DNA from: an uncultured Aquitalea sp.
GTDB taxonomy: Bacteria > Pseudomonadota > Gammaproteobacteria > Burkholderiales > Chromobacteriaceae
Length of the DNA stretch: 64,000 bases
Direction of reading: 5' to 3'
NCBI RefSeq assembly: GCF_945957525.1
Contig: NZ_CAMFLA010000011.1
Coordinates: 62,001 to 126,000 of the forward strand
The notes beneath the pieces were generated by a model, which was not told the DNA's origin, ran no database searches, and was given only the letters and a program-made list of their open reading frames with translations. Within the stretch, counting starts at the first letter, position 1. Every line of letters starts with the position of its first letter. Position numbers and translations under genes: made by a program. Positions 4,301 through 57,326 of the stretch are shown here, piece after piece.

Positions 4301-5881
4301 CTAGCGCAGATAGACATCCTCAAACTCAAAGGAACCGTTAGGGTTCATGACGAAACCCTCCACTTCCTTACGCATCGGGATGTAGATGCGAGAGTGGGCC
4401 ATGGTGATCCACGGGCGCTCGCGCTTGAAGATGTCCTGGGCCTTCAAATAATAGGTGGCGCGCTGTTTCTTGTCGGTGGTTTGCCGCGCCTTTTGCAGCA
4501 GGTCGTCAAACTCCTTGTTGCAGAAGCGCTGTCCATCCTTGCTGACGCTGCAGGACAAAGTACCCCAGAGAAAATCGTCCGGATCGCCGGAATCGCTGGT
4601 CCAGCCGCTCATGTATACATCATGCTCGCCCTGCCCCGCGCGTTTGAGGTACTCGCCCCATTCATAGCTCTGGATATTGGCTTTCACGCCGATTTTGGCC
4701 CAGTCCTGCTGGATCATCTGCGCCATCAGCTTGCCGTTGGGGTTGGTGGGGCGCTGCACCGGCAGAGCCCACAGATTCAAGACAAAGCCATCCGGATAGC
4801 CGGCTTTGGCCAACAATTGCCGGGCCTTGGCGGGGTTGTATTCGTTGCGGTTCTTGCTGTTCCAGCCCCAGACGCTGGGCGGGAAGGGATTAATGGCCTG
4901 GGTCGCCCCGCCCTTGGGGAACAGCGCCTTGAACAGCGCGTCGCGATCAATGGCGATATCCAGCGCCACGCGCACATCGCGCTTAGCCAGCTGCGGGCGC
5001 TTCAAGTTGTAAGCGAGATAGGAAATATTGGTGGCGCCGGTGCTGGCCACCTTCAGGCTTTTATCAGCCTCAATGCTGTCAAGATCAGACTCGCGCACTG
5101 CCGCCGCCAACTGGCACTCATACCCCTTGAGCTTCTGGATGCGCACTTGCGGATCGGTGACGATGGCAAAAATCAGGTTTTGCGTTTTCTGTTTCTTGCC
5201 CCAGTAAACCGGGTTGGCGCTGTAGCGTACCGCGGAATCCTTCACGTAAGCCTTGAACTGGTACGGACCGGTGCCCACCGGGTACTGATTGATATCCGCA
5301 GCGCGGCCTTCGGCCAACAGTTTGCCGGCGTACTCGGCGGACTGCATGCCGGCAAAACCCATGGCGAGGAATGACAGGAAAGTGGCGTTGCGCTCCTTCA
5401 GGCGTATTTTCACCGTATACGGATCCACCCGGGTCACGGCGCTGACGGATTGCGACAGTCCATAATCATTGGGGCCCAGCAACTGTGTCTTGAAAGCCTT
5501 GTTGAAGGGATGCTCCGGGTTGATCCAGCGGCTGATGGTAAACACCACGTCATCGGCATTGAAATCGCGGCCGGGCTTGAAGTAGTCCGTCGTCTGGAAC
5601 TTCACCCCCTTGCGCAGGTGAAAAACGTATTCGAGGCCATCCGGCGAGATGTCCCAGGACGTAGCCAGCACAGGGATGATTTCCGTGCCGCCGCGCTTGA
5701 ATTTCACCAGCCCCTGAAAAATCTGACGGGTAACATTGTAAGTGGACGCGCTGTCCCACAAAGCAGGATCGAAACCCTCAGGCGCAGTTTCCGCACAAAA
5801 CACCAAAGGACGGCCGGCCTGAACGGCGGTGGAGGCGAAGCCGGCAAGCAGACCGGCCAACAGCAAGCTACAAAAGCGCAT
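4301..5881 (-). CDS. Periplasmic peptide-binding protein of an ABC importer (DppA/DdpA-like)
   Basis: Solute-binding protein of the SBP_bac_5 family (526 aa, normal length), expected to deliver di- or oligopeptides to an inner-membrane ABC importer. It has a signal peptide (residues ~1-22, ending VQA) and family signatures, including the GFDPALWDSASTYN start of the mature protein and the YPVGTGPYQFKAY segment. AGGAGA precedes the ATG. No permease or ATPase gene is nearby, so the partner importer is elsewhere. Divergent neighbours encode a D-amino acid dehydrogenase, an LD-carboxypeptidase and a D-Ala-D-Ala dipeptidase, which makes D-Ala-D-Ala or murein peptide a likely ligand. A uptake-type motif TTCGGCCAAC lies at 5309-5318. 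Confidence 0.93.
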   Translation of the reverse strand: MRFCSLLLAGLLAGFASTAVQAGRPLVFCAETAPEGFDPALWDSASTYNVTRQIFQGLVKFKRGGTEIIPVLATSWDISPDGLEYVFHLRKGVKFQTTDYFKPGRDFNADDVVFTISRWINPEHPFNKAFKTQLLGPNDYGLSQSVSAVTRVDPYTVKIRLKERNATFLSFLAMGFAGMQSAEYAGKLLAEGRAADINQYPVGTGPYQFKAYVKDSAVRYSANPVYWGKKQKTQNLIFAIVTDPQVRIQKLKGYECQLAAAVRESDLDSIEADKSLKVASTGATNISYLAYNLKRPQLAKRDVRVALDIAIDRDALFKALFPKGGATQAINPFPPSVWGWNSKNRNEYNPAKARQLLAKAGYPDGFVLNLWALPVQRPTNPNGKLMAQMIQQDWAKIGVKANIQSYEWGEYLKRAGQGEHDVYMSGWTSDSGDPDDFLWGTLSCSVSKDGQRFCNKEFDDLLQKARQTTDKKQRATYYLKAQDIFKRERPWITMAHSRIYIPMRKEVEGFVMNPNGSFEFEDVYLR

Positions 5882-6018
5882 TATTGTTCTCCTGGCGCAA
5901 GAGGCGGTTCAGGTTTGCCGAACGCGGCTGCCGGCCTCCTCCTGAACAGCATCCAAAATGGGTGGGTTGATTCTAGAGCGACGCCAATGCGCGTCACCAA
6001 TGAAAATGCATGCATCAA

Positions 6019-6090
6019 CCATAACTTCAGGTTATGCATCAAAGCAAGGCAGCACTCACCTGAACACCAAACCATAACTTTCAGCTATGG
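6019..6090. promoter_or_regulatory. Repeated dyad, candidate LysR operator
   Basis: Between the divergent peptide-binding and dehydrogenase genes, the motif CCATAACTT..AG.TAT occurs twice in the same orientation. The first copy contains the perfect dyad ATAACTTCAGGTTAT (6021-6035); the second is CCATAACTTTCAGCTATGG (6072-6090). The copies start 53 bp apart, five helical turns. Two dyads in a divergent promoter beside a lysR gene fit recognition and activation sites. Binding by the regulator at 3374-4285 is inferred. Confidence 0.55.
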
Positions 6091-6159
6091 AGACAGCTCT
6101 TCTTTTCATTGGGCAAGCCGCGGGCCGGCTGACTAAGCTTGCTTCCAGAAAGGACTGTC

Positions 6160-7410
6160 ATGCCCCATATCTGCATCATCGGCGCAGGCGTCATCGGCCT
6201 CACCACTGCGTGGAGACTGGCCGAAGACGGCCATCAGATCACGCTGATAGATGGCGGCGAGCAAGCCGCCAGCGGCGCCAGCCACGCCAATGGCGGGCAA
6301 CTCAGCTACCACTACATTGCCCCCTTGGCCGATGCCGGCATGCCGCTCAAGGCACTGGGCTGGCTGTTGCAGTCTGACGCGCCCATGCGCTGGCAACCCG
6401 CAGCCGACCTGGCGCAATGGCGCTGGCTATGGCGTTTTCTGCTGGCCTGCAACACCGCCACCCACCAGCGCAATCTGCTCAAACTATGGCAGCTGGCCAT
6501 GCACAGCCGCCTGCAAATGCGGGATTTCGCCGCCCTGCCTCATGCCGACTACGCCCGCCAATGCAACGGCAAGCTGGTGGTGTTTCGCAGCGCCGCGGGC
6601 TTTGCCGCGGCCCGGCGCGGCATGACTGCGCTGGCCCGCCTGGGTGCGGAACAACAAGCACTGGACGGGGCTGCCTGCCTGGCGCTGGAACCCGCGCTGG
6701 CAGCGGTGGCCTACCGCCTGGCGGGCGGAATATTCACAGCAGCAGAAGAAGTCGCCGACTGTCTGCAGTTCTGCCAAAAGCTGGAAGCGCGCCTGCTGAC
6801 GCTGCCCAACGTCAGATTGCGGTACCGGACACAAGCTACCGGCTTCGGCCAACATCAGGGCCGCATCGACAGCGTACAACTCGACCACGGCGACGCCATT
6901 GCTTGCAACCATGTGGTGATTGCCGCCGGCTGCCACAGCCCTGCTCTGGCCCGCCTGCTGGGCGACCGGTTAAACCTTTACCCACTCAAAGGCTACAGCC
7001 TCGACATGCCCGCCGGTGCCCAGCCGCCTACCGTCAGCATCACCGACGCCGACCACAAGATTCTCTATGCGCCCATCAACGGACGACTGCGCGTGGCGGC
7101 GCTGGCCGACCTGACGGGCATGGATGACAGCCTGGACCCACAACGCCTGCAAAGCCTGACGCGCCGCATTGCCGCCGACATGCCCATGGCCGGCAAGCTG
7201 CCGCACGCCCGGCCATGGGCAGGACTGCGCCCCGCCACCCCGGACGGTCTGCCGCTGATCGGCAAGGGGCGGTACGACAATGCCTGGTACAACACCGGCC
7301 ACGGCGCGCTTGGCTTCACGCTGGCGGCGGGCAGTGCCGACTTGCTGGCGCGCCGCATTGCAGGCGAACAAGAGCCGGCATCCTTGCGCGGCCTCTTCCA
7401 GCCCGGCTAA
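6160..7410 (+). CDS. FAD-dependent D-amino acid dehydrogenase (DadA family)
   Basis: Flavoenzyme of the DAO/DadA family (416 aa), predicted to oxidise D-amino acids such as D-alanine to 2-oxo acids and ammonia at the inner membrane. The N-terminal GAGVIGLTTAWRLAEDG (residues ~8-24) is the Rossmann FAD-binding motif, and the C-terminal GLRPATPDGLPLIG..NTGHGALGFTLA is diagnostic for DadA. The start at 6160 follows AAGGA; a TTG at 6139 would add seven residues. Genes downstream make D-alanine from D-Ala-D-Ala and LD-peptides, so this is the probable catabolic step. The stop codon abuts a Correia-like repeat. Confidence 0.9.
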   Translation: MPHICIIGAGVIGLTTAWRLAEDGHQITLIDGGEQAASGASHANGGQLSYHYIAPLADAGMPLKALGWLLQSDAPMRWQPAADLAQWRWLWRFLLACNTATHQRNLLKLWQLAMHSRLQMRDFAALPHADYARQCNGKLVVFRSAAGFAAARRGMTALARLGAEQQALDGAACLALEPALAAVAYRLAGGIFTAAEEVADCLQFCQKLEARLLTLPNVRLRYRTQATGFGQHQGRIDSVQLDHGDAIACNHVVIAAGCHSPALARLLGDRLNLYPLKGYSLDMPAGAQPPTVSITDADHKILYAPINGRLRVAALADLTGMDDSLDPQRLQSLTRRIAADMPMAGKLPHARPWAGLRPATPDGLPLIGKGRYDNAWYNTGHGALGFTLAAGSADLLARRIAGEQEPASLRGLFQPG

Positions 7411-7525: not shown

Positions 7526-7630
7526 GTCAGTCTTCTTGACCCGATAATGCACAATGGGAAACACTGAAGCGCCACTTTGCAGCGGCAGCGGCTGGTCCGC
7601 ACATACAGACACAGAAACAATCACACGCAC

Positions 7631-8578
7631 ATGACACCTATCACCCCACTCCCCAATGCCCTTGGGCCTGGCGCGCACATTGCCATCATCGCTCCCGCCG
7701 GCCCCGCCCTGCCCGAACGCCGCGACGCGGTGCTCGCCTGGCTGACTGCCCGCGGCATGGGCGGCGAGTTGCTGCCCGGCGTGTTTCAGCGGCAAGACTA
7801 TCTGTCCGGGCCGGATGAGCAGCGGCTGGCCGACCTGCACATGGCGTTTGCCGAAGCGCGCTTCGACGCCGTGTTCTGCTTGCGCGGCGGCTATGGCACC
7901 CCCCGGCTGCTGCCTAACCTTGACCTGTCGCTGATTGCCCGCCATCCCAAACCCTTTGTCGGTTACAGCGACATCACCGCGCTACACATTGCCTTCAATC
8001 AGGCTGGCCTGCCTACTTTTCATGGCCCGATGCTGGCCTCCGACCTGGCCGTCAATGGCGACCAGCAGCATGAACATGCGCTGTTCAAGCTGCTAGCCGG
8101 CAAGCTGGCCGCCGGCGCGGACGTCCCCACGGCTACAGGCTTCCCCTTGCAAACGCTGCGAGGCGGCAAGGCGCGCGGCCCCCTGCTGGGCGGCAATCTG
8201 GCGCTCGTCGCCGCACTGGCAGGCACGCCCTGGGCCCTGCGCGGCGATGGCGCCGTCCTGTTTCTGGAAGACGTGGGGGAAGAACCATACCGCATCGACC
8301 GCATGCTGAACCAGCTGAAACAGTGCGGTCTGCTTGGGCGCGTCGCCGGTGTCATCTTGGGCGACTTTGCCCTGCCGCAAGGCGTGGATGCGCAAGCGCT
8401 GGCGCCGCTGTGGCAACACTATCTGTTGCCGCTGGGCGTACCGGTGCTGGCCGGCTGGCGCAGCGGACACTGCTTCCCCAACATGCCCTTGCCGCTGGGG
8501 GTTGCCGTGGAACTGGACGCCGACGCCGGCCGTCTCACCTTGCTGCAGGATATTTTTGCTGAAAGAACCCCCGCATGA
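7631..8578 (+). CDS. ldcA: Muramoyltetrapeptide LD-carboxypeptidase (S66 family)
   Basis: Cytoplasmic LD-carboxypeptidase (315 aa) that removes the terminal D-Ala from murein tetrapeptides during peptidoglycan recycling. S66 hallmarks are present: nucleophile Ser in VGYSDITALH, catalytic Glu in LFLEDVGEEPYRIDRML, and His in the C-terminal GHCFPNMPLPLG. The start at 7631 gives the normal N-terminus (GPGAHIAIIAPAGP). No good ribosome site is visible, and an upstream in-frame start at 7577 adds 18 unlikely residues. Its stop overlaps the next start (ATGA), so the two are translationally coupled. The released D-Ala can feed the upstream dehydrogenase. Confidence 0.92.
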   Translation: MTPITPLPNALGPGAHIAIIAPAGPALPERRDAVLAWLTARGMGGELLPGVFQRQDYLSGPDEQRLADLHMAFAEARFDAVFCLRGGYGTPRLLPNLDLSLIARHPKPFVGYSDITALHIAFNQAGLPTFHGPMLASDLAVNGDQQHEHALFKLLAGKLAAGADVPTATGFPLQTLRGGKARGPLLGGNLALVAALAGTPWALRGDGAVLFLEDVGEEPYRIDRMLNQLKQCGLLGRVAGVILGDFALPQGVDAQALAPLWQHYLLPLGVPVLAGWRSGHCFPNMPLPLGVAVELDADAGRLTLLQDIFAERTPA

Positions 8579-9198
8579 CTGCTGCCGTACCCCACATCAT
8601 CGCGCTGGAAGACATGCTGGCGCATCCGGAATACCTGTCGCTGCGCGAAATTCCCGGCCTGCATCTTGATCTGCGCTACGCCAGCGACAACAACTTCATC
8701 GGTCATGATCTTTACGGCCGCTTTGACGGCGCCTATCTGCATCAGCAAGCCGCCGCCCAATTGCAAAAAGCCGTCGCCCTGCTGGCCGCGCGTAAGCCCG
8801 ATTGGCGTTTCCGCGTACTGGACGCCTTGCGACCGGGCCGCGTGCAGCGCGTGCTGTGGGCCAAGGTGGCGGGCACGCCGGAGGAAATCTACGTGGCGGA
8901 CCCGGACAAGGGCTCCATTCACAGTTTCGGCATGGCCATAGACATTACGCTGGATGATGAAGACGGCAATGAAGTGGACATGGGCACCCCCTTCGACGAC
9001 TTCACCTTGCTGGCCCACCCCGCGCACGAGCCCACCATGTTGGCCGAAGGCCGCCTGAGCCAAGCGCAGCTGGCCAACCGCCAGCTGTTGCGCGACTGCC
9101 TGTACGGCGCGGGATTTCACGGCATACCTGCCGAATGGTGGCACTTCGACGCCGCAGACAAACACTGGATCCGCCAGCATCTGGCGCTGGTGGAATAA
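8575..9198 (+). CDS. ddpX: D-alanyl-D-alanine dipeptidase (VanX/DdpX, M15D)
   Basis: Zinc dipeptidase (207 aa) hydrolysing D-Ala-D-Ala. VanX-type motifs are complete: Arg in DALRPGRVQ, zinc ligands in SIHSFGMAIDITL (SxHxxGxAxD), and the catalytic Glu plus third ligand in EWWHF near the C-terminus. There is no signal peptide, so it acts in the cytoplasm like E. coli DdpX rather than in cell-wall assembly. It is coupled to the LD-carboxypeptidase gene by a 4-bp overlap. With the peptide-binding protein and D-amino acid dehydrogenase it suggests use of D-Ala-D-Ala as a nutrient. No vanH or vanA partner is present, so glycopeptide resistance is not indicated. Confidence 0.93.
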   Translation: MTAAVPHIIALEDMLAHPEYLSLREIPGLHLDLRYASDNNFIGHDLYGRFDGAYLHQQAAAQLQKAVALLAARKPDWRFRVLDALRPGRVQRVLWAKVAGTPEEIYVADPDKGSIHSFGMAIDITLDDEDGNEVDMGTPFDDFTLLAHPAHEPTMLAEGRLSQAQLANRQLLRDCLYGAGFHGIPAEWWHFDAADKHWIRQHLALVE

Positions 9199-9367: not shown

Positions 9368-9502
9368 GCGTCACCCCATCCCCCATCAATGCCAGCCGGC
9401 TTGACGCGCTTCGGCAAACAGCGTTTCAATGCTGCAAATCTGAAAAACAATTTAAACAAATTCAAAAACCCTGGCGGGGCGTGCGTCAACCCGGACCACT
9501 AG

Positions 9503-12506: not shown

Positions 12507-13397
12507 ATGTATGACTGGGACGCCCTCTGGCATGAACACGAAGGCTTTCGCACCGGTTTTTGCGTGCAGCACAACGACGCCAACCTGTTGGCCGAAGACC
12601 TGTCCGCCACGCTGATTCACCCCGCGCAGGGCGCGGACGGCGTCGCCGTTTATGAAACAGCGGACAAATACATTCTTGCCGGCCACGACGACGGGCTGCA
12701 GATGGTGGAAGTACTCAAGCACGGCCTGTTCGACATCACCTTGCGACTGGTCACTGAAGATGAAGGCGCGGACGCGGCCCTGCCTTATGTGGAAATCCAC
12801 GTCGACAACCTCGCCACGGAAGAGCAGGCCGTCTGGCGCGGCGAAGTACAACTGGACGATGAAGGCCGCATCTGGGTAGGCAAACGCACACTGAATGAAA
12901 ACGTGTTGCCGGCCATGCCGTTCGACGAGCTGTCCTTCACCGACAACGCCCGCTTCCGCGACGAACTGCATCGGGTGTGGCAGGAAGACCTGCCGCAATT
13001 GCGCCCGCTGATCGAAGCCTGGTTCAAGGGTGAACCACTGGGCGAAGACGACGCGCCGCATCACTACGGCGACGAGGCCCGCGTACAGCAGATTTGCGAC
13101 CGCTACGCGGAGATCGTCCGCCGCGAGCAAGCCGCGCTGTCGCGCCTTTTCTCCGACGCGGAGCTGGGCCTGATCGCTCACGTACTGCGCAGCGTGCGCT
13201 TTGAAGATGCCGCATCCTGCCGCGGCGTGTGGCTGGCGGTAGAAGCCCGCATTCTCGATGAAGAACTGGACCAGCGTTTCAAGCTTGACGGCGAGGCCTT
13301 GCTGAGCAAGATGAAAACGCTTGGCTACGCACAGGAAGTAGCGTTGATTGAAGCGCTGTCGCCGCTGCCGGAAGCCGCTTCGGCCAACCTTGGCTAA
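12507..13397 (+). CDS. Hypothetical protein, 296 aa
   Basis: Not recognised as a characterised family. The product is acidic (many Asp and Glu), soluble and without signal peptide or membrane segment. The first ~120 residues look beta-rich and the C-terminal half (from ~165) helical, suggesting two domains. AAGGAG lies ideally upstream of the ATG, supporting expression. The gene is divergent from typA and convergent with the quinone oxidoreductase. Two copies of the TTCGGCCAAC-type motif occur in it, at 12587-12596 and 13379-13388, the latter nine bases before the stop codon. Confidence 0.8.
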   Translation: MYDWDALWHEHEGFRTGFCVQHNDANLLAEDLSATLIHPAQGADGVAVYETADKYILAGHDDGLQMVEVLKHGLFDITLRLVTEDEGADAALPYVEIHVDNLATEEQAVWRGEVQLDDEGRIWVGKRTLNENVLPAMPFDELSFTDNARFRDELHRVWQEDLPQLRPLIEAWFKGEPLGEDDAPHHYGDEARVQQICDRYAEIVRREQAALSRLFSDAELGLIAHVLRSVRFEDAASCRGVWLAVEARILDEELDQRFKLDGEALLSKMKTLGYAQEVALIEALSPLPEAASANLG

Positions 13398-14700: not shown

Positions 14701-17130
14701 ATGAGTGATAACTGCTTCCATTGCGGCCTGCCGGTTCCGGCGTCGGCCGACTTCCCCATTCGTTACCGCGACAAAACCGAACGCACCTGCTGCGCCGGCT
14801 GTCAGGCGGTGGCGCGCACCATCATCGAGTCCGGCCTATCCGATTACTACGCCCACCGCACCCAGGGCGCCAATCAGGCCGAAGCCCTGCCGCAGGAAGT
14901 GCTGCAGCAAATCCGCCTGTACGACTCCGACGAGCTGCAAAAGAGCTTTGTCCGCATGGAGGACGGCGACATCCGCGAAGCGGCCTTGATGCTGGAAGGG
15001 ATTACCTGCGCCGCCTGCGTCTGGCTGAACGAACAGCACATCCGCCAACTGCCGGGCGTAGTGGAAGTGGATATCAACTACACCAGTCACCGCGCCCGAG
15101 TGCGCTGGGACAACAAGCAACTGAAGCTGTCGCAGATATTGCAAGCCATCGGCGATATCGGCTATCGCGCCCATCCCTACGACGCCGAGCGACTGGAGGC
15201 GATGAACCAGAAGGAGCGCAAACAGGCCATCAACCGCCTGTGGGCCGCCGGCCTCTCCATGATGCAGGTAATGATGTACGCGGTGCCCATTTATCTGGCG
15301 CCGGACGGCGATATCGCGCCGGACTTTCTCTGGCTGCTGCACTGGGCCAGCTTCATTCTCACCCTGCCTGTGATGCTGTATTCCGCCGTGCCCTTCTACC
15401 GCGCCACCTGGCGCGACCTCAAGACAGGCCGAGTGGGCATGGACACGCCGGTAACCATCGGCATCCTCACCGCGTTTTTCGCCAGTTTCTGGGCATTGAT
15501 TCACAAAATTCCGCACGGCGTGTTTTTTGACTCGGTATCGATGTTCGTTTTCCTGCTGCTGGGCGGTCGCTATCTGGAAGGCATCGCGCGGCGCAAGGCC
15601 GGCGAAGCCACGGAAAGCCTGGTCAAGCTGATTCCCGCCTTTGCGCACAAGCTTGACGGTTGGCCGGCTGATCGCAGCGCCAGCGAAGCCACGGTCGCGT
15701 CGCTCGCCATCGGCGACGTTATCCTCATCAAGCCGGGCGAGACCGTGCCGGTTGACGGCGAAGTACTGGAAGGCAGCGGCAGCGCCAATGAATCCCTGCT
15801 GACCGGCGAAAGCCGCCCGCTAGAGAAGCAGGCCGGCAGCGAGGTGATTGCCGGCAGCGTGAACGCCAGCAGCCCGCTCATCGTGCGCGTGACGCAAACC
15901 GGGCAGGAAACCCGCCTGGCCGGCATTGTCCGCCTGCTGGACAAGGCGCTGGCGGAAAAGCCCCGCCTCGCTGTCGCGGCCGATCGCTTCGCCAGCTGGT
16001 TTGTCGCGCTGCTGCTGATTGCCGCAGCGGCCAGCTATATCGGCTGGCACTTCATCGACCCGGCGCGCGCGCTGTGGATCATGGTGGCGGTACTGGTGAT
16101 TTCCTGCCCCTGCGCCCTGTCGCTGGCCACCCCCGCCGCACTGACCGCCGCTACAGGCCACTTGGCGGCGCTGGGCATTCTCACCACGCGCGGCCACGCG
16201 CTGGAAACGCTGGCGCGCGTCACCGACGTGGTTTTCGACAAAACCGGCACCCTGACCCATGGCGACATGCGCTTGGTGGCGCAGCAATGCTTCGGCCAAC
16301 ATGAGCCGGAGCCATCGCTGGCCATCGCCGCCGCTCTGGAAACCGGCGCGGAACACCCGGTGGCGCGCGCCCTGCTGACCGCCGCCCAAGACCACCCCCT
16401 GCCGCCAGCCAGCCAGCTGCGCAATGTGCCCGGCAAGGGCATTGAAGGATGGGTCGGCGGCATGGAATGGCGACTGGGATCGCCCGAGTTTGCCGAAGAA
16501 TGGCTTGGTGCCCTGTCGGGCGACGCCAGCCACCCCGAGTGTACACAAGTGGTGTTGGCCAACCGCCAGGGCGTGGCGGCGCGCTTCGCTATCGGCGATG
16601 CCGCGCGCGCGGATGCGGCCGCCATGGTTCGGTCGCTCAAGGCGCGGGGTCTGACCGTGCACCTGCTGAGCGGCGATGGCCCGCAAGCGGTACAGGCGCT
16701 GGCCGATGCGCTTGGCATTGCGCACTTCACCGCGCGCGCCGCGCCGGAAGACAAGCTGGCTCGCGTCAGCGCCCTGCAACAAGAAGGCCGCCGCGTCTTG
16801 ATGGTGGGCGACGGCATCAACGACGCGCCGGTACTGGCCCGCGCCGACGTATCGCTGGCGATGGGCGGCGGCACCGATGTGGCTCGCGCCAGCGGCGACA
16901 TGGTGCTGATGGGCGACCAGCTGTCGCTGATCCCGCAAGCCATCGCGCTGTCGCGCAAAACCCTGACCGTGATCCGGCAAAACCTTTGCTGGGCGGCGGG
17001 ATATAATCTGGTGGCCCTGCCCCTGGCCATCGGCGGCCACGTTACGCCATGGATCGCCAGTCTCGGCATGGCCATGAGTTCGCTGATCGTGGTCGGCAAC
17101 GCCCTGCGTCTAGTCAAACGGAAACGCTGA
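14701..17130 (+). CDS. ccoI: Copper-exporting P1B-type ATPase for cbb3 oxidase assembly (CcoI/FixI)
   Basis: Heavy-metal P-type ATPase (809 aa) of the CcoI/FixI/CtpA type, which moves Cu(I) across the inner membrane for cytochrome cbb3 oxidase maturation. The N-terminus has the CcoI-specific Cys cluster (NCFHCGLPVP, TCCAGCQA) and an HMA domain with GITCAAC near residue 105. Later come the membrane metal motif SCPCALSLATP (~468), the phosphorylation site DKTGTLTHGD (~512) and GDGINDAPVL (~702). ccoS overlaps its stop by one base, confirming the assembly role. The ribosome site (GGGGG) is rather distant from the ATG. The ccoNOQP structural genes are not in this window. Confidence 0.95.
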   Translation: MSDNCFHCGLPVPASADFPIRYRDKTERTCCAGCQAVARTIIESGLSDYYAHRTQGANQAEALPQEVLQQIRLYDSDELQKSFVRMEDGDIREAALMLEGITCAACVWLNEQHIRQLPGVVEVDINYTSHRARVRWDNKQLKLSQILQAIGDIGYRAHPYDAERLEAMNQKERKQAINRLWAAGLSMMQVMMYAVPIYLAPDGDIAPDFLWLLHWASFILTLPVMLYSAVPFYRATWRDLKTGRVGMDTPVTIGILTAFFASFWALIHKIPHGVFFDSVSMFVFLLLGGRYLEGIARRKAGEATESLVKLIPAFAHKLDGWPADRSASEATVASLAIGDVILIKPGETVPVDGEVLEGSGSANESLLTGESRPLEKQAGSEVIAGSVNASSPLIVRVTQTGQETRLAGIVRLLDKALAEKPRLAVAADRFASWFVALLLIAAAASYIGWHFIDPARALWIMVAVLVISCPCALSLATPAALTAATGHLAALGILTTRGHALETLARVTDVVFDKTGTLTHGDMRLVAQQCFGQHEPEPSLAIAAALETGAEHPVARALLTAAQDHPLPPASQLRNVPGKGIEGWVGGMEWRLGSPEFAEEWLGALSGDASHPECTQVVLANRQGVAARFAIGDAARADAAAMVRSLKARGLTVHLLSGDGPQAVQALADALGIAHFTARAAPEDKLARVSALQQEGRRVLMVGDGINDAPVLARADVSLAMGGGTDVARASGDMVLMGDQLSLIPQAIALSRKTLTVIRQNLCWAAGYNLVALPLAIGGHVTPWIASLGMAMSSLIVVGNALRLVKRKR

Positions 17131-19371: not shown

Positions 19372-19773
19372 ATGCCACACCCCCTGGGCCTGACCGGCTT
19401 GCATCACGTCGCCTTGATTGCATCGGACTACCCGCGCTCGCGCGATTTTTATCACCGCCTGCTGGCGCTGCCCATCGTCAGCGAAACCTGGCGCGCTGAA
19501 CGCGAATCCTGGAAGTTGAATCTGGCGCTGCCGGACGGCTGCGAGCTGGAGCTGTTCAGCTTCCCTTCCCCGCCGACGCGCCCTACCCGACCCGAAGCCT
19601 GCGGCCTGCGCCACCTGGCCTTGGCCTGTGACGATATCGATGCCGCCCGCAAATGGCTGTTGGCCGAAGGCGTGCCATGCGAAACCATCCGGCTGGATGA
19701 CATCGCCAACCGGCGCTTCTTTTTTTGCCAAGACCCGGACGGGCTGCCCATCGAGTTCTACAGCGCCGTCTGA
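19372..19773 (+). CDS. VOC-family metalloprotein (YaeR/GloA2-like)
   Basis: Single-domain vicinal-oxygen-chelate protein (133 aa) of the glyoxalase/bleomycin resistance superfamily, closest by memory to E. coli YaeR. Motifs are GLHHVALIASDYPRSRDFYHRLL at the start (metal-ligand His), ELELFSFP (Glu), GLRHLALAC (His) and DPDGLPIEFY (Glu) at the end. The four metal ligands are therefore present. CAGGAG precedes the ATG. It is monocistronic and followed by a long terminator. The substrate is unknown. A motif GTTGGCCGAA is at 19659-19668. Confidence 0.88.
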   Translation: MPHPLGLTGLHHVALIASDYPRSRDFYHRLLALPIVSETWRAERESWKLNLALPDGCELELFSFPSPPTRPTRPEACGLRHLALACDDIDAARKWLLAEGVPCETIRLDDIANRRFFFCQDPDGLPIEFYSAV

Positions 19774-24710: not shown

Positions 24711-25032
24711 TGTTTTTCTCCAACCTTCCCGCTCGTAAAACTACTCCCTCTCTGGCGAAGCAGTATCAACCCGGAAAGCGCTGGAGCGCATCATTTATCT
24801 GGCAAGAAAGCAATGATAGTGCGCCGGTGGTGCTTGCTGGTTTCCAAAATGCGACAGACAGGCCCAGAAGAGCAGGCTGCCGCGAGCCTGAATAATGCAA
24901 GCTTGCTTGACGGTTAGCCCGGTTGGTCTCACATGGCGGATTCACCCAGGCATTGCTTGAAAATCGCTGTATCCCCCGGCGGTTTGATGTTCGGCAAACA
25001 AGACTATCCCCGCACAAGGAAGTACTTGCGCA
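24711..25032. other. Divergent intergenic region, 322 bp
   Basis: This separates the leftward PBPb-GGDEF-EAL gene from the rightward FIST-HD-GYP operon and must contain both promoters. AAGGAAG (about 25017-25023) is the ribosome site for the FIST gene. No clear palindrome, riboswitch or repeat was found, and no sigma-factor motif could be assigned with confidence. Confidence 0.4.
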
Positions 25033-29932: not shown

Positions 29933-29980
29933 CGTTGGCCGAAGGCGGCAAGCTGGCCGCCTGTCGGCTTTCCGCAATGA

Positions 29981-36921: not shown

Positions 36922-36975
36922 GCCGCCCGGCCGGAGCAGCCCGCTTCGGCCAACCCTTCCGCCATCCCTCATCCC

Positions 36976-44920: not shown

Positions 44921-45265
44921 TCAGTCTTGCGGACACAATACCTGCCAGTCATCAGCACCCACCGTCAGATGACAAGCCAGACGCCAATGCCCCGCCAACC
45001 CGGACCATACCGCTTGCCGCGCCTGCTCAGCGCTCACCAAACCTGCGCGCAGCATCACATTGCGCTCTTTGCCGCTCAGCATCACCTCGCCATCCTCGCC
45101 CACGGGCGTCACCCTCACCTTGCACGTACCGCAGGTCCCCTGCCCGCAGCGCCAGTGCAGGGGCACATCGCACAATCGCGCCACATCCAGCAGAAGATCG
45201 CCCGGCGCGGCGTCGGCTTCGGCCAACAGCGCGCCCCCCGTGTCGACAAAACGGATCAGCGGCAA
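44921..45265 (-). CDS. Plant-type [2Fe-2S] ferredoxin-like protein
   Basis: Small electron carrier (114 aa) with the CX4CX2C..C pattern of plant-type ferredoxins: Cys40, Cys45, Cys48 and Cys98. The segment CGQGTCGTCKVRV is diagnostic. Soluble, no signal peptide. It starts four bases after the moeA stop on the same strand and is probably translated from the same message, though its partner enzyme is unknown. A TTCGGCCAAC motif covers 45218-45227 in the LLAEA codons. Confidence 0.88.
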   Translation of the reverse strand: MPLIRFVDTGGALLAEADAAPGDLLLDVARLCDVPLHWRCGQGTCGTCKVRVTPVGEDGEVMLSGKERNVMLRAGLVSAEQARQAVWSGLAGHWRLACHLTVGADDWQVLCPQD

Positions 45266-45269: not shown

Positions 45270-46457
45270 CTACTCCAGCAAAATGAAAGCCAGGCTGTCG
45301 CCTGGGCGCACCACCTGTCCTGGCGCCAACCTTACCAGACCATCCGCCCAAGCGCAGGAAGTCAACACGCCTGAACCTTGATGCGCAAACCGTTCCAAGC
45401 GCCAGGCACCGTCGCGCAGCACACGGCGCACCCGCAAAAATTCTTCCCGCTTGGCATCAGGACGCGACCAATCGAAGTCTGCAACATAGCGCTGCGGGGG
45501 TTGCTCCACGGCCATCAAGCCCTGAGCCCGTTGCAGGGCGGGCTTGACCATTACGTGGAAAGTCACAAAACCAGACACGGGGTTGCCCGGCAAGCCGACA
45601 AACACTGCCTCGCCCACGCTGCCGCTGGCCAGCGGCTTGCCGGGCTTGATGGCAACTTTCCACAAGTCCAGCTCGCCCGCCGCCTCTACCGCGGCCTTGA
45701 CGTGATCCTCTTCGCCGACAGACACTCCGCCGCACGTCATGATCACGTCCGCCAGGCCCGCGGCCTCCTCCAGCGCGTCTCGCGTCGCGCCGAAGCTGTC
45801 GGGGATGATGCCAAAATCCGTCACTTCGCAACCCAGTCGCATCAACTCGGGCACCAGCCAGTACCGGTTGGAGTTGTAGATCTGCCCTGCGGAAAGGACC
45901 GCGCCCGGCTCCACCAACTCATCGCCGGTAAAAAACACCGCCACGCGCAGCGGACGACGCACGACCAGCTCAGCCACGCCAATGGACGCAGCCAGGCCGA
46001 TATCCGCCGAGGTCAATTTTCGCCCCGCCTGCAGCACTACCGCGCCGCGACGGATGTCTTCGCCGGCGCGGCGGATGTTTTGCCCGGCCTGCAACGGCGG
46101 CTTGAACCATACCGAGCCATCGGCAGCCGGCTCGGCCAGCTCTTGCATCACCACCAGATCGGCCCCCGGCGGTATCGGCGCGCCGGTGAAAATACGCGCG
46201 ACGGAGCCCGCCGCCAGAGCTTGCGGCACGCTGCCGGCCGGAATGCGCTGAGATACCGGCAATGCCACGCCTGCGTCGGCAAGCCGCAAGGCATAGCCAT
46301 CCATGGCGCTATTGTCATGCGGCGGTACATCAATGCCGGATACAAGATCTTCGGCCAACACCCGGCCCAGCGTTTCCAACAAAGGCAAGCTTTCCACGCC
46401 GGACACCGGCTTGGCGCGCTGCGACAGCAAGGCTTGCGCCTGATCAACAGTCAACAT
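45270..46457 (-). CDS. moeA: Molybdopterin molybdenumtransferase MoeA
   Basis: Inserts molybdate into adenylylated molybdopterin, the last step of Mo-cofactor synthesis (395 aa). MoeA signatures are complete: PPHDNSAMDGYAL near the N-terminus, GAPIPPGADLVV, TGDELV, GGVSVGEEDH and GLPGNPVSGFVTF. The start at 46457 overlaps the mobB 3' end by 14 bp, so an upstream ribosome site lies inside mobB (GGAAA, weak). Longer frame to 46580 rejected. Order mobB-moeA-ferredoxin suggests one Mo-cofactor operon read leftward. Confidence 0.95.
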   Translation of the reverse strand: MLTVDQAQALLSQRAKPVSGVESLPLLETLGRVLAEDLVSGIDVPPHDNSAMDGYALRLADAGVALPVSQRIPAGSVPQALAAGSVARIFTGAPIPPGADLVVMQELAEPAADGSVWFKPPLQAGQNIRRAGEDIRRGAVVLQAGRKLTSADIGLAASIGVAELVVRRPLRVAVFFTGDELVEPGAVLSAGQIYNSNRYWLVPELMRLGCEVTDFGIIPDSFGATRDALEEAAGLADVIMTCGGVSVGEEDHVKAAVEAAGELDLWKVAIKPGKPLASGSVGEAVFVGLPGNPVSGFVTFHVMVKPALQRAQGLMAVEQPPQRYVADFDWSRPDAKREEFLRVRRVLRDGAWRLERFAHQGSGVLTSCAWADGLVRLAPGQVVRPGDSLAFILLE

Positions 46458-46953
46458 GGGGGAAATTTTCCAGCAAGCTAAGAATGAAAGCGGCGACGCC
46501 ATCGGCATCGTCCCGCAGAAAGACAGGAAGAGAACTTGGCGCGGCCTGATCGCAAACCAGCGCCAGCACATTCGGATCATCCGGGTGCAGACGCGGCTTG
46601 CCTAGCCGACTGTCGTAGACTTCGATCTTGGGCACAGTTGCCTGTTTGAAGCCTTCGGCCAACACTAGGTCACAAGGCCGGAGCATGGCGACATGACTCA
46701 TCAGCGGCAAATCGTTGCCGCCCGGCAGCTCATCGCTCAACAGCCTGCGCCGCGGCGTCACCAGCATCACTTGCGCCGCGCCGGCCTCACGGTGACGCCA
46801 GCTATCCTTGCCGGGAGTATCCCACTGCACATCGTGATGCGTATGCTTGATGACCGCTATGTCGAGGCCGGCTGCACGGAGGCGCGGCAGCAATTTTTCG
46901 ATCAGCGTGGTTTTGCCGCAGCCGGAGTAACCAGCCACTCCCAGAACGTACAT
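46444..46953 (-). CDS. mobB: Molybdopterin-guanine dinucleotide biosynthesis protein MobB
   Basis: GTP-binding accessory protein (169 aa) for conversion of Mo-molybdopterin to the bis-MGD form. P-loop GYSGCGKTTLIEKLL (residues ~8-22), KHTHHDVQWDTPGKDSWRHREAGA and LVLAEGFKQATVPKIEVY are family-typical. The partner mobA is not in this window. It overlaps moeA by 14 bp. Uptake-like motif at 46654-46663. Confidence 0.93.
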   Translation of the reverse strand: MYVLGVAGYSGCGKTTLIEKLLPRLRAAGLDIAVIKHTHHDVQWDTPGKDSWRHREAGAAQVMLVTPRRRLLSDELPGGNDLPLMSHVAMLRPCDLVLAEGFKQATVPKIEVYDSRLGKPRLHPDDPNVLALVCDQAAPSSLPVFLRDDADGVAAFILSLLENFPHVDC

Positions 46954-47078: not shown

Positions 47079-47294
47079 TCAGGCAGCACGCGGGTAGTGG
47101 CCAGACTGGTCTTCAGGCGCCTCGAAGCGCTTCCAGTCGACAATCATCACCTGGGTCAGGCCGCAGTCTTCGGCCAACTGCGCCTCAATCTCTTCCAGCA
47201 CCTGATGGCTGTGTATCGTGCCGTTGATCGCCACTTCGGCGCGGCGCATCACCGTATCGTCCGGCGTGACAAACCAGATGCAGTAACGACTCAT
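47079..47294 (-). CDS. Small conserved-looking hypothetical protein, 71 aa
   Basis: Not recognised. Start at 47294 (MSRYCIWF) follows AAGGGG; the in-frame extension to 47396 is unlikely. A compact alpha/beta composition with AEVAINGTIHSHQVLEEIEAQL and VMIVDWKRFE suggests a small folded domain. It is isolated between mobB and the DNA glycosylase, same strand as both. A TTCGGCCAAC motif lies in its LAE codons (47169-47178). Confidence 0.65.
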   Translation of the reverse strand: MSRYCIWFVTPDDTVMRRAEVAINGTIHSHQVLEEIEAQLAEDCGLTQVMIVDWKRFEAPEDQSGHYPRAA

Positions 47295-48503: not shown

Positions 48504-49666
48504 TTCGCCTCCAGCAGCACCGCATTGGCCGCCAGCGCGGCGGTATCCTGCTTCAGCTGCAGATGCAAGTCAGTGAAGGCTTGCACCATCTCCGCCCTGG
48601 CGGCCGTATCTTCGTACAGACGCACCATCTCCGCAGCCAGCTTGTCCGGCGTGGCATCATTTTGCAGCAGCTCGGGCACGACGAAGCGCCCGCAGAGGAT
48701 GTTCGGCAAACCCACGTACGGCAAACGGATCTTGCGCTTCACCAGCCAGTAGGTCAGTGTGGACAGCTTGTAGCTGATCACCATCGGCCGCTTGGCCAAG
48801 GCCACTTCCAGCGTGGCGGTGCCGCTGGTTACCAGCACGGCGTCGCTGGCTATCATCGCCATCTGCGCGTGACCAAACAGCTTGCGGATGGGCAGTTCCC
48901 AAGCGCGATGCTTGGTCAGCAGGCGATCAAAAATATCCATGGTGGCGCGCGTCGCCAAAGGCACCAGGAAGGTGACATCCGGATAGCGCGCGAGCAGTCG
49001 CTTCGCCGCCTCGATGAACAGCGGGCCCATGTAATGCAGCTCGCTCTTGCGACTGCCCGGCATCAAGGTAAAGATCGGCCCGATGCGCGGCAGGCCAAGC
49101 TGTTCACGCATGGCGCGCATATCGGGCTCAAGCGGAATCTCGCTGGCCAGCGGATGGCCGACATAACTCACCGGCACGCCAGCCTGCTGATACAGCGGCG
49201 GCTCCATCGGGAACAGGCACAGCACGCGATTCACCAGTTTGCCGATACGCTGTACCCGCTCAGGCCGCCAGGCCCAGACCGACGGGCTGACATAATGGAT
49301 GGCCGGAATGCCAGCGGCCTTCAAAGCGCCTTCCAGCGCCATATTGAAGTCCGGAGCATCGACGCCGATGAACACATCGGGCCGCTCCGCCTTGAGCTGG
49401 TCGCGCAGGCGACGACGGATGCGCAGCAGCTCGGGCAACACCCGCAACACCTCCGCATAGCCGCGCACCGCCAGCTTCTCTTGCGGCACCACGCCGTGAA
49501 AGCCTCGCGCCTCCATGCGCGGACCGCCAATGCCGGCGAACTCGATATTCTCGTGTCGCGCCTTGAGCGCATCCATCAAATGCGCCGCCAAAAGATCGCC
49601 TGAAGCCTCGCCGGCTACCATGGCCACCTTCAGCGCCCCCGTGCGCGTGAATAATGGCTGCGACAT
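48494..49666 (-). CDS. lpxB: Lipid-A-disaccharide synthase LpxB
   Basis: Peripheral membrane glycosyltransferase (390 aa, standard length) joining lipid X and UDP-diacylglucosamine into the lipid A disaccharide. [19 protein letters not shown] at the N-terminus, [14 protein letters not shown] and [10 protein letters not shown] (nucleotide site) are characteristic. It starts two bases after lpxA stops and overlaps rnhB. Part of lpxD-fabZ-lpxA-lpxB. Confidence 0.97.
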
Positions 49667-50901: not shown

Positions 50902-51946
50902 TGGAGTTGTCCTCTGCATTTTTCATGGCGGCGATCTCGCGTTCGAGTTGTTTTATGCGTTTGGCGAGATCATCCAGGTGTCTTACGTGAACGGCGTTAG
51001 CCAGCCATTCCTTCATCGGCTGCAATGGGTAAGAAGAGGCGTAAGTACCCGCCTCCTTGATGGTTTTGGATACCAGCGTGCCGCCACCGATATGGGTGCG
51101 GTCCGCCACTTCGATATGGCCGACGAACATCGCCGCGCCGCCTACGGTGCAGTTGGCGCCGATGCGGGTGCTGCCGGCGATGCCGACACAACCGGCGATG
51201 GCGGTATGCTGGCCGATTTCCACGTTGTGCGCGATCTGGACCAGATTGTCGATCTTGGCGCCCTTGCGGATGATCGTATCGGACAAAGCGCCGCGATCAA
51301 TCGTGGTATTTGCACCGACCTCCACATCATCTTCAATGATGACGCGTCCCGTCTGTGGAATCTTGAACCAATGATCCTTGGCCCAGGCAAGACCAAAACC
51401 GTCGGCGCCGATGACGGTGCCGGAGTGTATGCCTACTCGGTTGCCGATATGGCAGCCCTGATAAATGGTGACATTGGGGTACAGCACCACATCATCGCCA
51501 ATGACCGTGTCGTCGCCTACCACCACCCCAGGATGCAGGATGCAACGCTCGCCCACCCGCACGCGCTCGCCAAGGGTGACATGAGCGCGAATTTCCGCCG
51601 TTGCGGCAATGCGCGCGCCTTCGCCCACTACGGCGGACGGATGGATGCCGCCTAGCGCGGTGGCCGGAGGATGAAACAAGGTGGCCACCTGAGCAAAGTA
51701 AAGATACGGATCTGCCGCCAGAATCCACGACCGCGCGGACAGATCTAGCTCTTCGGCCAACTTGGGCGACACGATCACCGCGCCGGCAGCGCAACTATCC
51801 AGTTGTTTGCGGAATTTCGGATTGGACAGGAATGTGATGTCGTCGGCGCTCGCCTCGCCCATCGGTGCCAGGCGGCCCACTTCAACATCAGCGCCCTTCA
51901 GCTCGCCGCCCAGACGGGCGACGATGTCGGAAAGTTTGTAAGCCAT
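50894..51946 (-). CDS. lpxD: UDP-3-O-acylglucosamine N-acyltransferase LpxD
   Basis: Third lipid A enzyme (350 aa), adding the N-linked hydroxyacyl chain. N-terminal uridine-binding domain (~1-100), then a beta-helix of hexapeptide repeats (~105-300) with the catalytic His in [16 protein letters not shown], and a C-terminal helix that ends in a short coiled tail. The ATG at 51946 is used; TTG at 51949 is adjacent. Lies between skp and fabZ, the usual order. Motif TTCGGCCAAC at 51752-51761. Confidence 0.96.
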
Positions 51947-54795: not shown

Positions 54796-54804
54796 AGGTA
54801 TGGT

Positions 54805-56151
54805 TTAACCCCCAAAAAGGCGACCGAGGTCGTTCAGCAAGGCGAACAACATCAACGACGCCAGCAGGATGAATCCGATCTTTTGTCCAAACAGTTGAGC
54901 CTGCTCGCTCAGCGGGCGGCCTTTAACCAGTTCCGCGACATAATACATTAAGTGCCCGCCATCCAGCACAGGTATTGGCAAGAGATTGAGCACGCCGATG
55001 CTGACACTGATCAGCGCCAGAAATTCCAGGTAAGGCGTCAGTCCCTCGCGCGCAGTCTGTCCCGCAACCGTGGCGATGGTGAGCGGGCCGGACAGATTGT
55101 CCAGCGAAGCTTGCCCAATCAGCATTCGACCCAGGAATTTCAGCGACATCCATGCGGTGTCGAAAGTCTTTTGCGCCGCCTCGAGACCAGCCTGCCCGAA
55201 AGAAGGATGATGAACGAAGGAAATGCTCTTCATCCAGGCTTGATCCACCAGGGGAGCAGCCCCGATACGCCCCACCATCACATCGCCCGCGGGCACCGTG
55301 GCAGGTCGCAGCCGAACATCCAACGCCTTGCCGTCGCGCTCTATGCGCACCAGCAACTCCTTGCCCGGGCTGTCTCGCACCACTTTCACCCAGGCATCCC
55401 AGCTTGCCAACGGCTTGCCATCCACGGCCAGGAGACGATCACCCGCCTTGAGACCGGCCTTGGCGGCCACGCCGCCCTCTTCAAGCCCGCCGATCGCATT
55501 AAGGTAACGCGCCGGAGAGATGCCGGGATCGCCCTTTTCAAATGCCTGCAAGAAAGTATCGTCCATCAGGGTAGGATCAATCACGCGCGTAGCGATGGCG
55601 CCTTGCGCGGTCTGCACCTTCACCTTGACGGGGTCCGGCTGGTGCGAAGCCGCCTCAACCAATGCCAGCCTGGCTTCCTGCCAGTTCTTTACCCCCTGCG
55701 CATCGATGGTTTGCAGCTTGTCGCCTGGCTGGAAACCAGCCACTGCCGCCGGCGTCTGCGGCGCAACGGAACCCACCAGCGGCTGCAACTGCAGCACGCC
55801 CTGAGCAATGACCAGCCAGTAAAACAGCACCGCCAACAACAAATTGGCCACAGGCCCGGCAGCGACAATGGCCATGCGTTTGAATACCGACTGCGTATTG
55901 AAAGCCTGGTGACGCTCTGCCGCGTCGACTTCCATCTCGCGTTCATCCAGCATGCGCACATAGCCTCCCAGCGGAATCGGACAGATCGCCCACTCGGTAT
56001 CGCCGCGTTGCCAACTGATCAACGGCGCGCCAAAACCGATGGAAAAACGCAGCACTTTAACGCCGCAGAGTCTGGCAATCGCGTAATGACCAAATTCGTG
56101 AAACGTCACCAACACGCCGATGGCGACGAGAAATGCGAGGAATGTCAGCAT
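54805..56151 (-). CDS. rseP: Site-2 zinc metalloprotease RseP
   Basis: Intramembrane protease (448 aa) that cleaves anti-sigma factor RseA in the envelope stress response. Zinc site HEFGH at residues 18-22 in the first membrane span, two PDZ domains (~120-300), and [16 protein letters not shown] with the third zinc ligand near the C-terminus. The start at 56151 is set by homology to the family N-terminus ([15 protein letters not shown]); the frame to 56238 is spurious. Overlaps dxr by 7 bp. Confidence 0.96.
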
Positions 56152-57326
56152 GAATGCACCTTGCCCAGAGCGACGCGACGAGCCTCCGCATCCGCGGCGA
56201 GCAAATCGGCAAGCGAAGCGCTGGCCGACAAGTCGCAAACGGACAGCGTAGACTCCACCACCATCGGAATGTCGACAAAACGAATGCGGCGATCCAGAAA
56301 GGCCGCCACAGCGACTTCATTGGCGGCATTAAGCACTGCAGGCGCATCGCCGCCAGCCGCCAAGGCCGAAAAGGCCAGCGCCAGGCACGGGAAGCGAATC
56401 AGATCCGGCTTCTCAAACGTCAGGCCGGACAGGGCCATGAAATCAAGTGATGCCACACCGGATTCGATGCGATCTGGCCAGCCCAGCACATTGGCGATCG
56501 GCGTGCGCATATCCGGAGAGCCAAGCTGGGCCAGTACCGAGCCGTCCTTGTACTGCACCATGGAGTGAATCACGCTCTGCGGATGAACCACTACCTCGAT
56601 GCGGTCTGGCGGCGCATTGAACAACCAATGCGCTTCGATCACCTCCAGCCCCTTGTTCATCAGGCTGGCGGAATCAACGGAAATCTTGCGCCCCATTACC
56701 CAGTTGGGATGCTTGCAAGCATCCTCGGGGGTTACCTGCGCCAACTCTTCGGCCAACCTGCCGCGAAACGGACCGCCCGACGCAGTAAGGATGATCTTGC
56801 GGATTCCCGCCACATCGAGGTCGCCGGCGTAATCATGCGGCAATGACTGGAAAATGGCGTTGTGCTCGCTATCCACCGGCAGCAGGGTAGCGCCGCCTTC
56901 GCGCACGGCTTCCATAAACAGCCGCCCCGCCACCACCAAAGACTCTTTATTGGCCAGCAGCACTTTTTTGCCCGCACGCGCCGCAGCAATGGCGGATGGC
57001 AAACCGGCGGCGCCCACGATGGCGGCCATCACCATATCCACCTCGGGCAGCACCGCCACCTGCTCAAGAGCCGCCGGCCCATGCAGCACCTCTGCGTTCA
57101 GGCCGCTCTCGGCCAAACGCGGACGCAAATCCGCCGCAGCCGCAGCATCGGCCACCACCAGGAAGCGGGGATGGAAACGTTTTGCCTGCTCCAGCAGGCG
57201 GTCAATTTGACGATGACCGGTCAGGACGACAACCTGAAACCGGTCTGGATGACGGGCAACCACGTCCAGCGTATTGACGCCGATGCTGCCGGTTGCCCCA
57301 AGAACGGCAATGCCTTGAGGATTCAT
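56145..57326 (-). CDS. dxr: 1-deoxy-D-xylulose 5-phosphate reductoisomerase
   Basis: Second enzyme of the MEP isoprenoid pathway (393 aa), NADPH-dependent. [14 protein letters not shown] (NADPH site, ~10-23), [33 protein letters not shown] and [18 protein letters not shown] are all present. Its product chain feeds the undecaprenyl synthase two genes upstream (uppS). Nine bases after cdsA. Motif TTCGGCCAAC at 56748-56757. Confidence 0.97.

Follow-up and report, generated by a model that had tools for sequence, protein, structure and literature searches.

A putative DNA uptake sequence with genus-specific dialects, and a ComP-type receptor candidate, in Aquitalea and related genera

Within a 64-kb stretch of an Aquitalea genome (contig 11, positions 62001-126000, of an assembly with 35 contigs and 4,045,770 bases; hereafter, the window and the focal genome), the 10-mer TTCGGCCAAC recurs far above expectation. 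We propose, with a probability of roughly 0.83, that this word is a DNA uptake sequence (DUS) read by a ComP-type minor pilin. A sequence-only reading of the window had called it a probable DNA uptake sequence, and of the explanations weighed below, this one is best supported: by the genome-wide excess of the word, its dialects among relatives, the change of word at aligned sites, inverted close pairs, a strand bias that is only weak, and homologues of ComP, ComEA, and ComEC in the focal genome. In our best reading, the word represents a new branch of uptake sequences that has dialects and a candidate receptor of the ComP type, found in a family whose examined members reportedly lacked them.

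The window holds 22 copies of TTCGGCCAAC, against a mean of 0.26 and a maximum of 2 in 100 dinucleotide-preserving shuffles, and 19 copies extend to the longer form CTTCGGCCAAC; both counts agree with those first reported. In addition, a second form that is a single base off, TTCGGCAAAC, occurs 9 times in the window (0.13 expected). Far from falling to expectation, the count across the focal genome (4.05 Mb) reaches 1,368 for TTCGGCCAAC (698 + 670) and 21 for its reversed-word control (12 + 9), with corresponding values of 549 + 520 and 4 + 1 for CTTCGGCCAAC. In a 455.5-kb sample of this genome, TTCGGCCAAC was found 157 times, and a fourth-order Markov model predicts 4.1.

Further analysis of this sample revealed that the signal resides in DNA and is not a by-product of codon choice. 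A simple gene caller placed 120 of the 157 copies in genes, 35 between genes, and 2 on gene edges. The genic copies occur in all six frame and strand settings, the commonest being Leu-Ala-Glu on the antisense strand (74 of 120); in known uptake sequences, too, one orientation predominates in reading frames, as reported by Van Passel (PMC2346458). The explanation by codon-pair or composition bias alone could draw on this preferred frame, but it is refuted by synonymous codon shuffles within genes (n = 60), which yielded a mean of 8.5 copies and a maximum of 15 against the 120 observed, by a mild excess between genes, whose 15.6% share of the DNA holds 35 of the 157 copies, and by sister genomes of similar G+C content, in which the counts stay at background.

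Among the 30 one-base variants of TTCGGCCAAC, strong enrichment in the same sample is confined to the change of C7 to A, i.e., TTCGGCAAAC (76 copies versus 4.6 expected). Three others are weakly enriched: A8 to G (16 versus 3.8), C6 to G (10 versus 1.3), and C10 to G (10 versus 4.1). Since the four C-to-T changes sum to 8 versus 6.2 and the two G-to-A changes to 6 versus 2.0, TTCGGCAAAC does not follow a plain pattern of decay by transitions. The flanks contribute some information: C precedes 124 of the 157 copies, T is the second following base in 90, and little information is left past about 3 bases on each side.

With the aim of placing the word among relatives, we compared 61 genomes of the family, in genera labelled g1 (Aquitalea, including the focal genome) to g10. 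TTCGGCCAAC, which we call the TT dialect, is abundant in 8 of them, with 1,368 copies in the focal genome, 579 and 2,168 in g5, 1,245 in g6, 1,851 in g8, and 1,104, 183, and 893 in g9. Two further dialects were discovered by k-mer search of fetched stretches and then counted genome-wide. TGCGGCCAAC (the TG dialect) has 1,871-2,895 copies in all 13 g10 genomes and at most 58 in every other genome of the family, and CTCGGCCAAC (the CT dialect) has 1,940 and 1,590 copies in the two g4 genomes, the next-highest counts being 165 (G035), 92 (G039), and 85 (G042). Collectively, 23 of the 61 genomes bear one dialect, with 1,245-2,895 copies in 19 of them and 183-1,104 in the other 4. The second form TTCGGCAAAC is numerous in the focal genome alone (76 copies, against 0 to 2 in sampled DNA of the other six TT genomes). 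In an order-wide draw of 399 genomes, the 386 from other families had at most 47 copies of TTCGGCCAAC each. That highest count, a slight excess over its control of 16, belongs to G364 (stretch L319, family f44/g53), in which the classical AG-DUS AGGCCGTCTGAA occurs 27 times in 20 kb; the order thus includes a classical DUS genome, presumably one of the Neisseriaceae.

None of the three words is abundant in the remaining 38 genomes (the 9 others of g1, 19 of g2, 4 of g3, and 6 of g7). We looked for a hidden dialect in 397 kb of the Aquitalea crown (G002, G003, G005, and G006), 234 kb of g2, and 98 + 36 kb of g7, and found nothing DUS-like; the top raw k-mers there stem from local repeats, a CRISPR-like array (clustered regularly interspaced short palindromic repeats), and an apparent tRNA cluster.

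A nine-gene tree (rpsB to bamA) sets the focal genome as sister to four rows of the Aquitalea crown (support 100/100), so the description of the genome as Chromobacterium-like was right at the family level. Five genera have the TT dialect; they do not form one group, and the placement of some is weak. The CT genus g4 and the TT genus g5 are sisters (98/99). Four-state parsimony on this 25-row tree requires 6 changes. We prefer loss to repeated gain because the identical 10-mer occurs in five genera, and we infer that absence of the word in its relatives reflects loss.

Two sets of counts touch on this point. Within genera, copy numbers spread about four- to six-fold, from 579 (G035) to 2,168 (G036) in g5 and from 183 to 893 and 1,104 in g9, where the low-count genome (G046) is 84% complete; these differences possibly mark different stages of gain or loss. 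Small excesses also occur in two g7 genomes, G039 and G042, with CTCGGCCAAC at 92 and 85 copies (controls 21 and 17) and TTCGGCCAAC at 62 and 45 (controls 13 and 11), and they are possibly relics of a lost uptake sequence.

The most telling result comes from aligned sites in fetched DNA of 13 genomes, which were compared pairwise, the pairs not being independent. At 120 sites aligned between TT and CT genomes, the subject carries its own dialect at 18 and the query's form at 0, and control 10-mers are identical in 32 of 719 cases. Sites therefore follow the word of the local genome, as would be expected if a recogniser had changed and the sites had followed it. Within dialects, the sites are more conserved than their surroundings, as is the case for Neisseriaceae DUS: the word is retained at 26 of 47 sites between genomes of the same genus and dialect (control 10-mers, 46 of 276) and at 21 of 140 sites across genera of one dialect (controls, 43 of 830). 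For three genomes of the Aquitalea crown, alignments of at least 300 bases and wholly aligned sites were used, and the word was retained at 0 of 199 motif sites (controls, 60 of 1,184). This figure fits erosion and, taken alone, may reflect either loss or absence.

The arrangement of the copies also resembles that of an uptake sequence. Close neighbors (60 bp or less) are always inverted, in 17 of 17 pairs across five genomes (4 of 4 in the focal genome with both forms counted, 6 of 6 in G059, 5 of 5 in G033, and 1 of 1 each in G036 and G037), and such pairs exceed random expectation in G059 (6 versus 2.9) and G033 (5 versus 1.2). Pairs of this kind are described for Neisseria DUS, where they act as terminators. 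Between genes, the two forms together reach their highest density where the neighboring genes converge (10 in 5.1 kb), compared with tandem (35 in 43.4 kb) and divergent (7 in 15.9 kb) arrangements. In 340 kb of contig 1, the longest motif-free stretch (14.5 kb) starts inside rpoA, passes through ribosomal-protein genes to tuf, and closes with an inverted pair between tuf and fusA; these genes were identified by eye.

We then come to the putative receptor. The ComP_DUS family (PF16732) is above its cut-off in 60 of the 61 genomes, with four hits in the focal genome. Since it discriminates so little, and since two of the focal hits match other pilins first, a ComP clade was used instead. The focal candidate lies on contig 9 at 75225-75602 or slightly upstream. 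Two genes precede it, one of the GspH family and one with a prepilin N_methyl motif. It scores 41 bits with PF16732 (cut-off 27.3) and 19.8 with the prepilin N-terminus model TIGR02532 (cut-off 16.3). Its best PDB matches are three Neisseria ComP chains, 2m3k, 5hz7, and 2nba (2.8e-10, 3.5e-10, and 3.9e-10; next pilin, 5.4e-5), and a profile of nine orthologues sharpens these values to 3.6e-17, 6.9e-16, and 3.6e-15 (next, 2.3e-6). A g10 orthologue likewise matches Neisseria ComP first. Two focal paralogues match geopilin/PilE and PilA first, with no ComP among the matches listed.

In a tree of 78 pilins, built on few columns and with long branches, 47 ComP candidates and a Neisseria ComP fragment form one clade (99/95), and the fragment stands beside g10 (93/81). 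This tree and the loop comparison below cover 47 of the 57 matching genomes, six from g10 and four from g2 being left out. The ComP profile matches in 57 of 61 genomes overall; the four misses are the g3 genomes, which lack the motif. A match exists in each of the 23 motif-bearing genomes, the weakest being those of g10 (60-76 bits), and the g7 matches are weak as well (49-87 bits). Over the C-terminal domain, the ComP proteins compared with the focal one are 34-52% identical to it. The two g5 genomes, with up to 2,168 motif copies, yield no ComP_DUS-family hit at E 0.001 besides the candidate.

Of the 17 candidates from motif-bearing genomes, 16 have a lysine or arginine directly after the aromatic residue in the loop before WP, as do 0 of the 30 from motif-less genomes, a pattern read by eye, post hoc, and with no correction for kinship. 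The exception is the focal candidate, which has Thr; Neisseria 2m3k has Lys. This is presumably the alpha1-beta1 loop, which contacts DNA according to structural and modelling work. As for the remaining machinery, a ComEA homologue is present in the focal genome, and ComEC was found in 59 of the 61 genomes, with an open frame of 762 residues in the focal one. In two genomes there are signs of decayed competence: the comP match of G038 (C1:465153-465458) holds an in-frame TGA, and ComEA is below its cut-off in G038 and G040.

Taken together, these data suggest the following mechanism. The ComP-type minor pilin of a type IV pilus would bind double-stranded DNA that holds the word (on its other strand, A-[G/T]-GTTGGCCGAA-G), the pilus would retract, and ComEA and ComEC would then bring the DNA in. 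Given such biased uptake, homologous recombination would spread alleles that hold the word, and copies would accumulate where the sequence tolerates them and be kept up by transformation drive or selection. The genera would each use their own dialect (TTCGGCCAAC, CTCGGCCAAC, or TGCGGCCAAC), the focal genome would accept TTCGGCAAAC as well, and several lineages would have lost the motif.

Several observations weigh against this view. A ComP match does not predict the motif, as it is also found in 34 of the 38 motif-less genomes, and ComP of the Aquitalea crown looks intact at 151-164 bits, on a model that takes 2 of its 9 rows from there. No ComEC match was obtained for the motif-bearing G057 and G058, which are 98% and 88% complete. 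The candidates keep the C-terminal Cys pair and are without the beta1 Cys of the four-Cys DD region; this Cys was flagged absent in 46 of 47, with G040 a parsing slip (Cys at 18, 19, 119, and 128). At aligned sites, the TG dialect shows nothing clear: among 198 sites compared with other dialects, the subject's dialect occurs at 8 and the query's at 4, and control 10-mers are identical in 54 of 1,179 cases (4.6%). In addition, 0 of 7 focal sites aligned to G037, of the same dialect, retain the word, and close pairs in the focal genome are not in excess (4 versus 7.0 at random, from 233 sampled copies). The two strands also show a weak imbalance, with 308 copies on the strand rich in C and 251 on that rich in G (z -2.4) in sampled stretches of motif-bearing genomes, those with a GC skew under 0.01 being dropped. 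Finally, Neisseriaceae DUS have a CTG core at +6 to +8, where GTTGGCCGAA has CCG. All eight described DUS dialects share that CTG core, as stated by Frye (2013, PMC3630211), and the word therefore falls outside the described dialect group; a CTG variant of our word would read TTCAGCCAAC on the sense strand, and this occurs 4 times versus 1.5 expected in the 455.5-kb sample.

Some of these points would suit an uptake sequence that arose independently of Neisseria DUS and is read by another surface protein, e.g., a FimT-type minor pilin, with ComP incidental. The ComP-like genes kept in motif-less genomes, the missing CTG core and four-Cys DD region, and the GspH-family gene in the candidate's own cluster all speak for it. 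We nevertheless consider it unlikely, as Neisseria ComP sits inside the candidate clade, the sole genomes without a ComP match are also without the motif, the two g5 genomes offer no other ComP_DUS-family hit, the basic loop residue tracks the motif (post hoc, and with the focal protein excepted), and the 12-mer around the word resembles AG-mucDUS (see below).

A role in chromosome maintenance (as a Chi/RecBCD or KOPS/FtsK motif, or as the site of a nucleoid or segregation protein) or as a methylation site appears more doubtful still. The word is indeed short, non-palindromic, and genome-wide, and it shows the weak one-strand excess given above. Strand-polar motifs of the Chi/KOPS type, however, have a strong bias to one replication strand, which a ratio of 308:251 does not approach, and inverted close pairs and dialect change are better suited to an uptake sequence. 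An essential chromosome function would also be at odds with 9 of the 10 genomes of the genus lacking the motif while a sister lineage has 1,368 copies. The word could instead be borne by a dispersed repeat family or by a terminator element, which would account for the copies that form terminator-like inverted pairs; this is highly improbable given flanks so poor in information, genic copies in all frames, and only 4 close pairs among the 233 copies of the focal sample.

The copies in the window are listed in Table 1. They run from 5309 to 56757, with 11 in the Leu-Ala-Glu frame, 5 in Ser-Ala-Asn, 2 in Phe-Gly-Gln, and 4 outside called genes, as assigned with a simple gene caller that may miss genes. 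The sequence-only reading had given 13, 5, 2, and 2, so its middle two figures stand and the other two shift. It had also counted 15 Leu-Ala-Glu sites with the favored 9-mer against 2 with the alternative; among the 35 in-frame Leu-Ala-Glu strings of called genes, we find TTGGCCGAA 13 times and CTGGCCGAA 2 times. Its claim that the stretch from bamA to rpsB is empty is true of TTCGGCCAAC, and fails for the second form, which has one copy there.

Table 1. Copies of the two forms of the word in the window. Frames are given by the encoded residues in one-letter code.
Feature	Position	Strand	Setting
TTCGGCCAAC copy	5309..5318	+	LAE frame, antisense
TTCGGCCAAC copy	6844..6853	+	FGQ frame
TTCGGCCAAC copy	9039..9048	-	LAE
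TTCGGCCAAC copy	12587..12596	-	LAE
TTCGGCCAAC copy	13379..13388	+	SAN, close to gene end
TTCGGCCAAC copy	16291..16300	+	FGQ
TTCGGCCAAC copy	18043..18052	+	SAN
TTCGGCCAAC copy	19659..19668	-	LAE
TTCGGCCAAC copy	21066..21075	+	LAE
TTCGGCCAAC copy	26702..26711	-	LAE
TTCGGCCAAC copy	29934..29943	-	outside called genes
TTCGGCCAAC copy	35434..35443	-	LAE
TTCGGCCAAC copy	36945..36954	+	outside called genes
TTCGGCCAAC copy	42123..42132	+	SAN
TTCGGCCAAC copy	42483..42492	+	SAN
TTCGGCCAAC copy	44010..44019	+	SAN
TTCGGCCAAC copy	45218..45227	+	outside called genes
TTCGGCCAAC copy	46350..46359	+	LAE
TTCGGCCAAC copy	46654..46663	+	LAE
TTCGGCCAAC copy	47169..47178	+	outside called genes
TTCGGCCAAC copy	51752..51761	+	LAE
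TTCGGCCAAC copy	56748..56757	+	LAE; in gene read as dxr
Second form TTCGGCAAAC	5913..5922	-	outside called genes
Second form TTCGGCAAAC	7846..7855	-	FAE frame
Second form TTCGGCAAAC	9410..9419	+	outside called genes
Second form TTCGGCAAAC	16488..16497	-	FAE
Second form TTCGGCAAAC	22109..22118	-	FGK
Second form TTCGGCAAAC	24990..24999	+	outside called genes
Second form TTCGGCAAAC	33032..33041	+	outside called genes
Second form TTCGGCAAAC	48702..48711	+	GLP frame
Second form TTCGGCAAAC	57662..57671	-	FGK; gene read as cdsA, inside bamA-rpsB stretch

Three side observations were made in the genomes compared. Stretches L120-L124 of G003, an Aquitalea relative, hold a repeat of about 28 bases (a length deduced from overlapping 10-mers) 27 times, in a CRISPR-like array that we take to be type I-F-like. 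In stretches L147-L150 of G038 (80 kb), CGCGTCGTAG has 21 copies; it drops out of the highest-ranking words once each 1.5-kb bin is allowed a single count, and so has the look of a local repeat. Core-gene matches in stretch L220 (G044) are partial (rpsB 175, pyrH 123, and bamA 487 residues), so this assembly probably has frameshift errors.

Few lineages are known to take up DNA in a sequence-specific manner. If another family has a related set of dialects, nature has already made swaps, losses, and a genome with two forms, and the co-evolution of receptor and word, the change of dialect in place, and the effect of word loss become testable. The word may also offer a practical handle for transforming bacteria of the Aquitalea family. 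We found no report of TTCGGCCAAC as an uptake sequence in the open-access PMC literature, a search that did not cover the supplementary 10-mer table of PMC3630211.

Among known systems, the uptake signal sequences (USS) of Pasteurellaceae (Hin-USS AAGTGCGGT and Apl-USS ACAAGCGGT) follow the same principle of an abundant short word with lineage versions. Their sequence is unrelated, as our word contains neither the AAGTGCGGT nor the ACAAGCGGT core, and Pasteurellaceae are without a ComP homologue according to Berry (2016, PMC4906244). A closer parallel exists for the two word forms that the focal genome appears to accept (C or A at position 7), unlike Neisseriaceae DUS in general. Simonsiella muelleri carries kingDUS and simDUS in one genome, as noted in PMC3630211. 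Here, too, the two forms differ by one base (TTCGGCCAAC, 157 copies, and TTCGGCAAAC, 76, in 455.5 kb), but the word is different and one form is twice as common, whereas those of S. muelleri are nearly equal.

The strongest likeness is to Neisseriaceae DUS. As portrayed by Frye (2013, PMC3630211) and Berry (2016, PMC4906244), these are words of 10-12 bp, with hundreds to thousands of copies, on both strands and in all frames, and ComP is their receptor; genus-specific dialects, inverted close pairs, and a ComP_DUS-family minor pilin are further shared features, and the receptor candidate differs from Neisseria ComP in lacking the extra one of the two disulfides of the DD region. An N. sicca locus of 20.8 kb, taken as a positive control, contained 17 copies of AGGTCGTCTGAA. 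Seven 12-mers were counted in the focal sample; read on the other strand, the most frequent is AGGTTGGCCGAA (49 of 157), followed by ATGTTGGCCGAA (18). A followed by G or T is thus commonest at -2/-1, and the AG- and AT-DUS of Neisseria are AGGCCGTCTGAA and ATGCCGTCTGAA. G036, G037, G044, G045, G047, G059, and G033 likewise have A as their commonest base at -2; G035 (2 copies) does not. AGGTTGGCCGAA is identical to AG-mucDUS at 9 of 12 positions and to AG-DUS at 8 of 12. Its shuffles reach 9 in 148 of 20,000 cases (four dialects, both orientations, and five shifts). With AT- and AG-DUS as the sole references, 495 of 20,000 shuffles do as well as the word itself, and for the bare 10-mer 1,039 of 20,000, so the case for shared descent leans on the flanks. 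Overall, the word likely works like a DUS, and common descent with DUS is probable.

In the 2013 survey (PMC3630211), two Chromobacterium genomes and those of Laribacter, Lutiella, and Pseudogulbenkiania showed no obvious DUS. A BLAST search there found no ComP in C. violaceum, the most frequent 10-mers of C. violaceum and Laribacter contained CAG, and DUS was taken to have arisen once the Chromobacterium lineage had split off. If g2, g3, and g7 are the surveyed genera, our motif data agree with that survey, yet related genera bear the motif and g2 has ComP orthologues; the surveyed Chromobacterium, Pseudogulbenkiania, Lutiella, and Laribacter may be lineages that lost the word. We lean towards a joint reading in which the DUS-ComP system was already in place when Neisseriaceae and the Aquitalea-Chromobacterium family diverged. 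The word, descended from a common A[GT]G..G.C.GAA ancestor, would have drifted into a branch with a CCG core and three or more dialects. Old sites would have had their dialect rewritten in place, and the word would have been lost in the Aquitalea crown, g2, g7, and perhaps g3.

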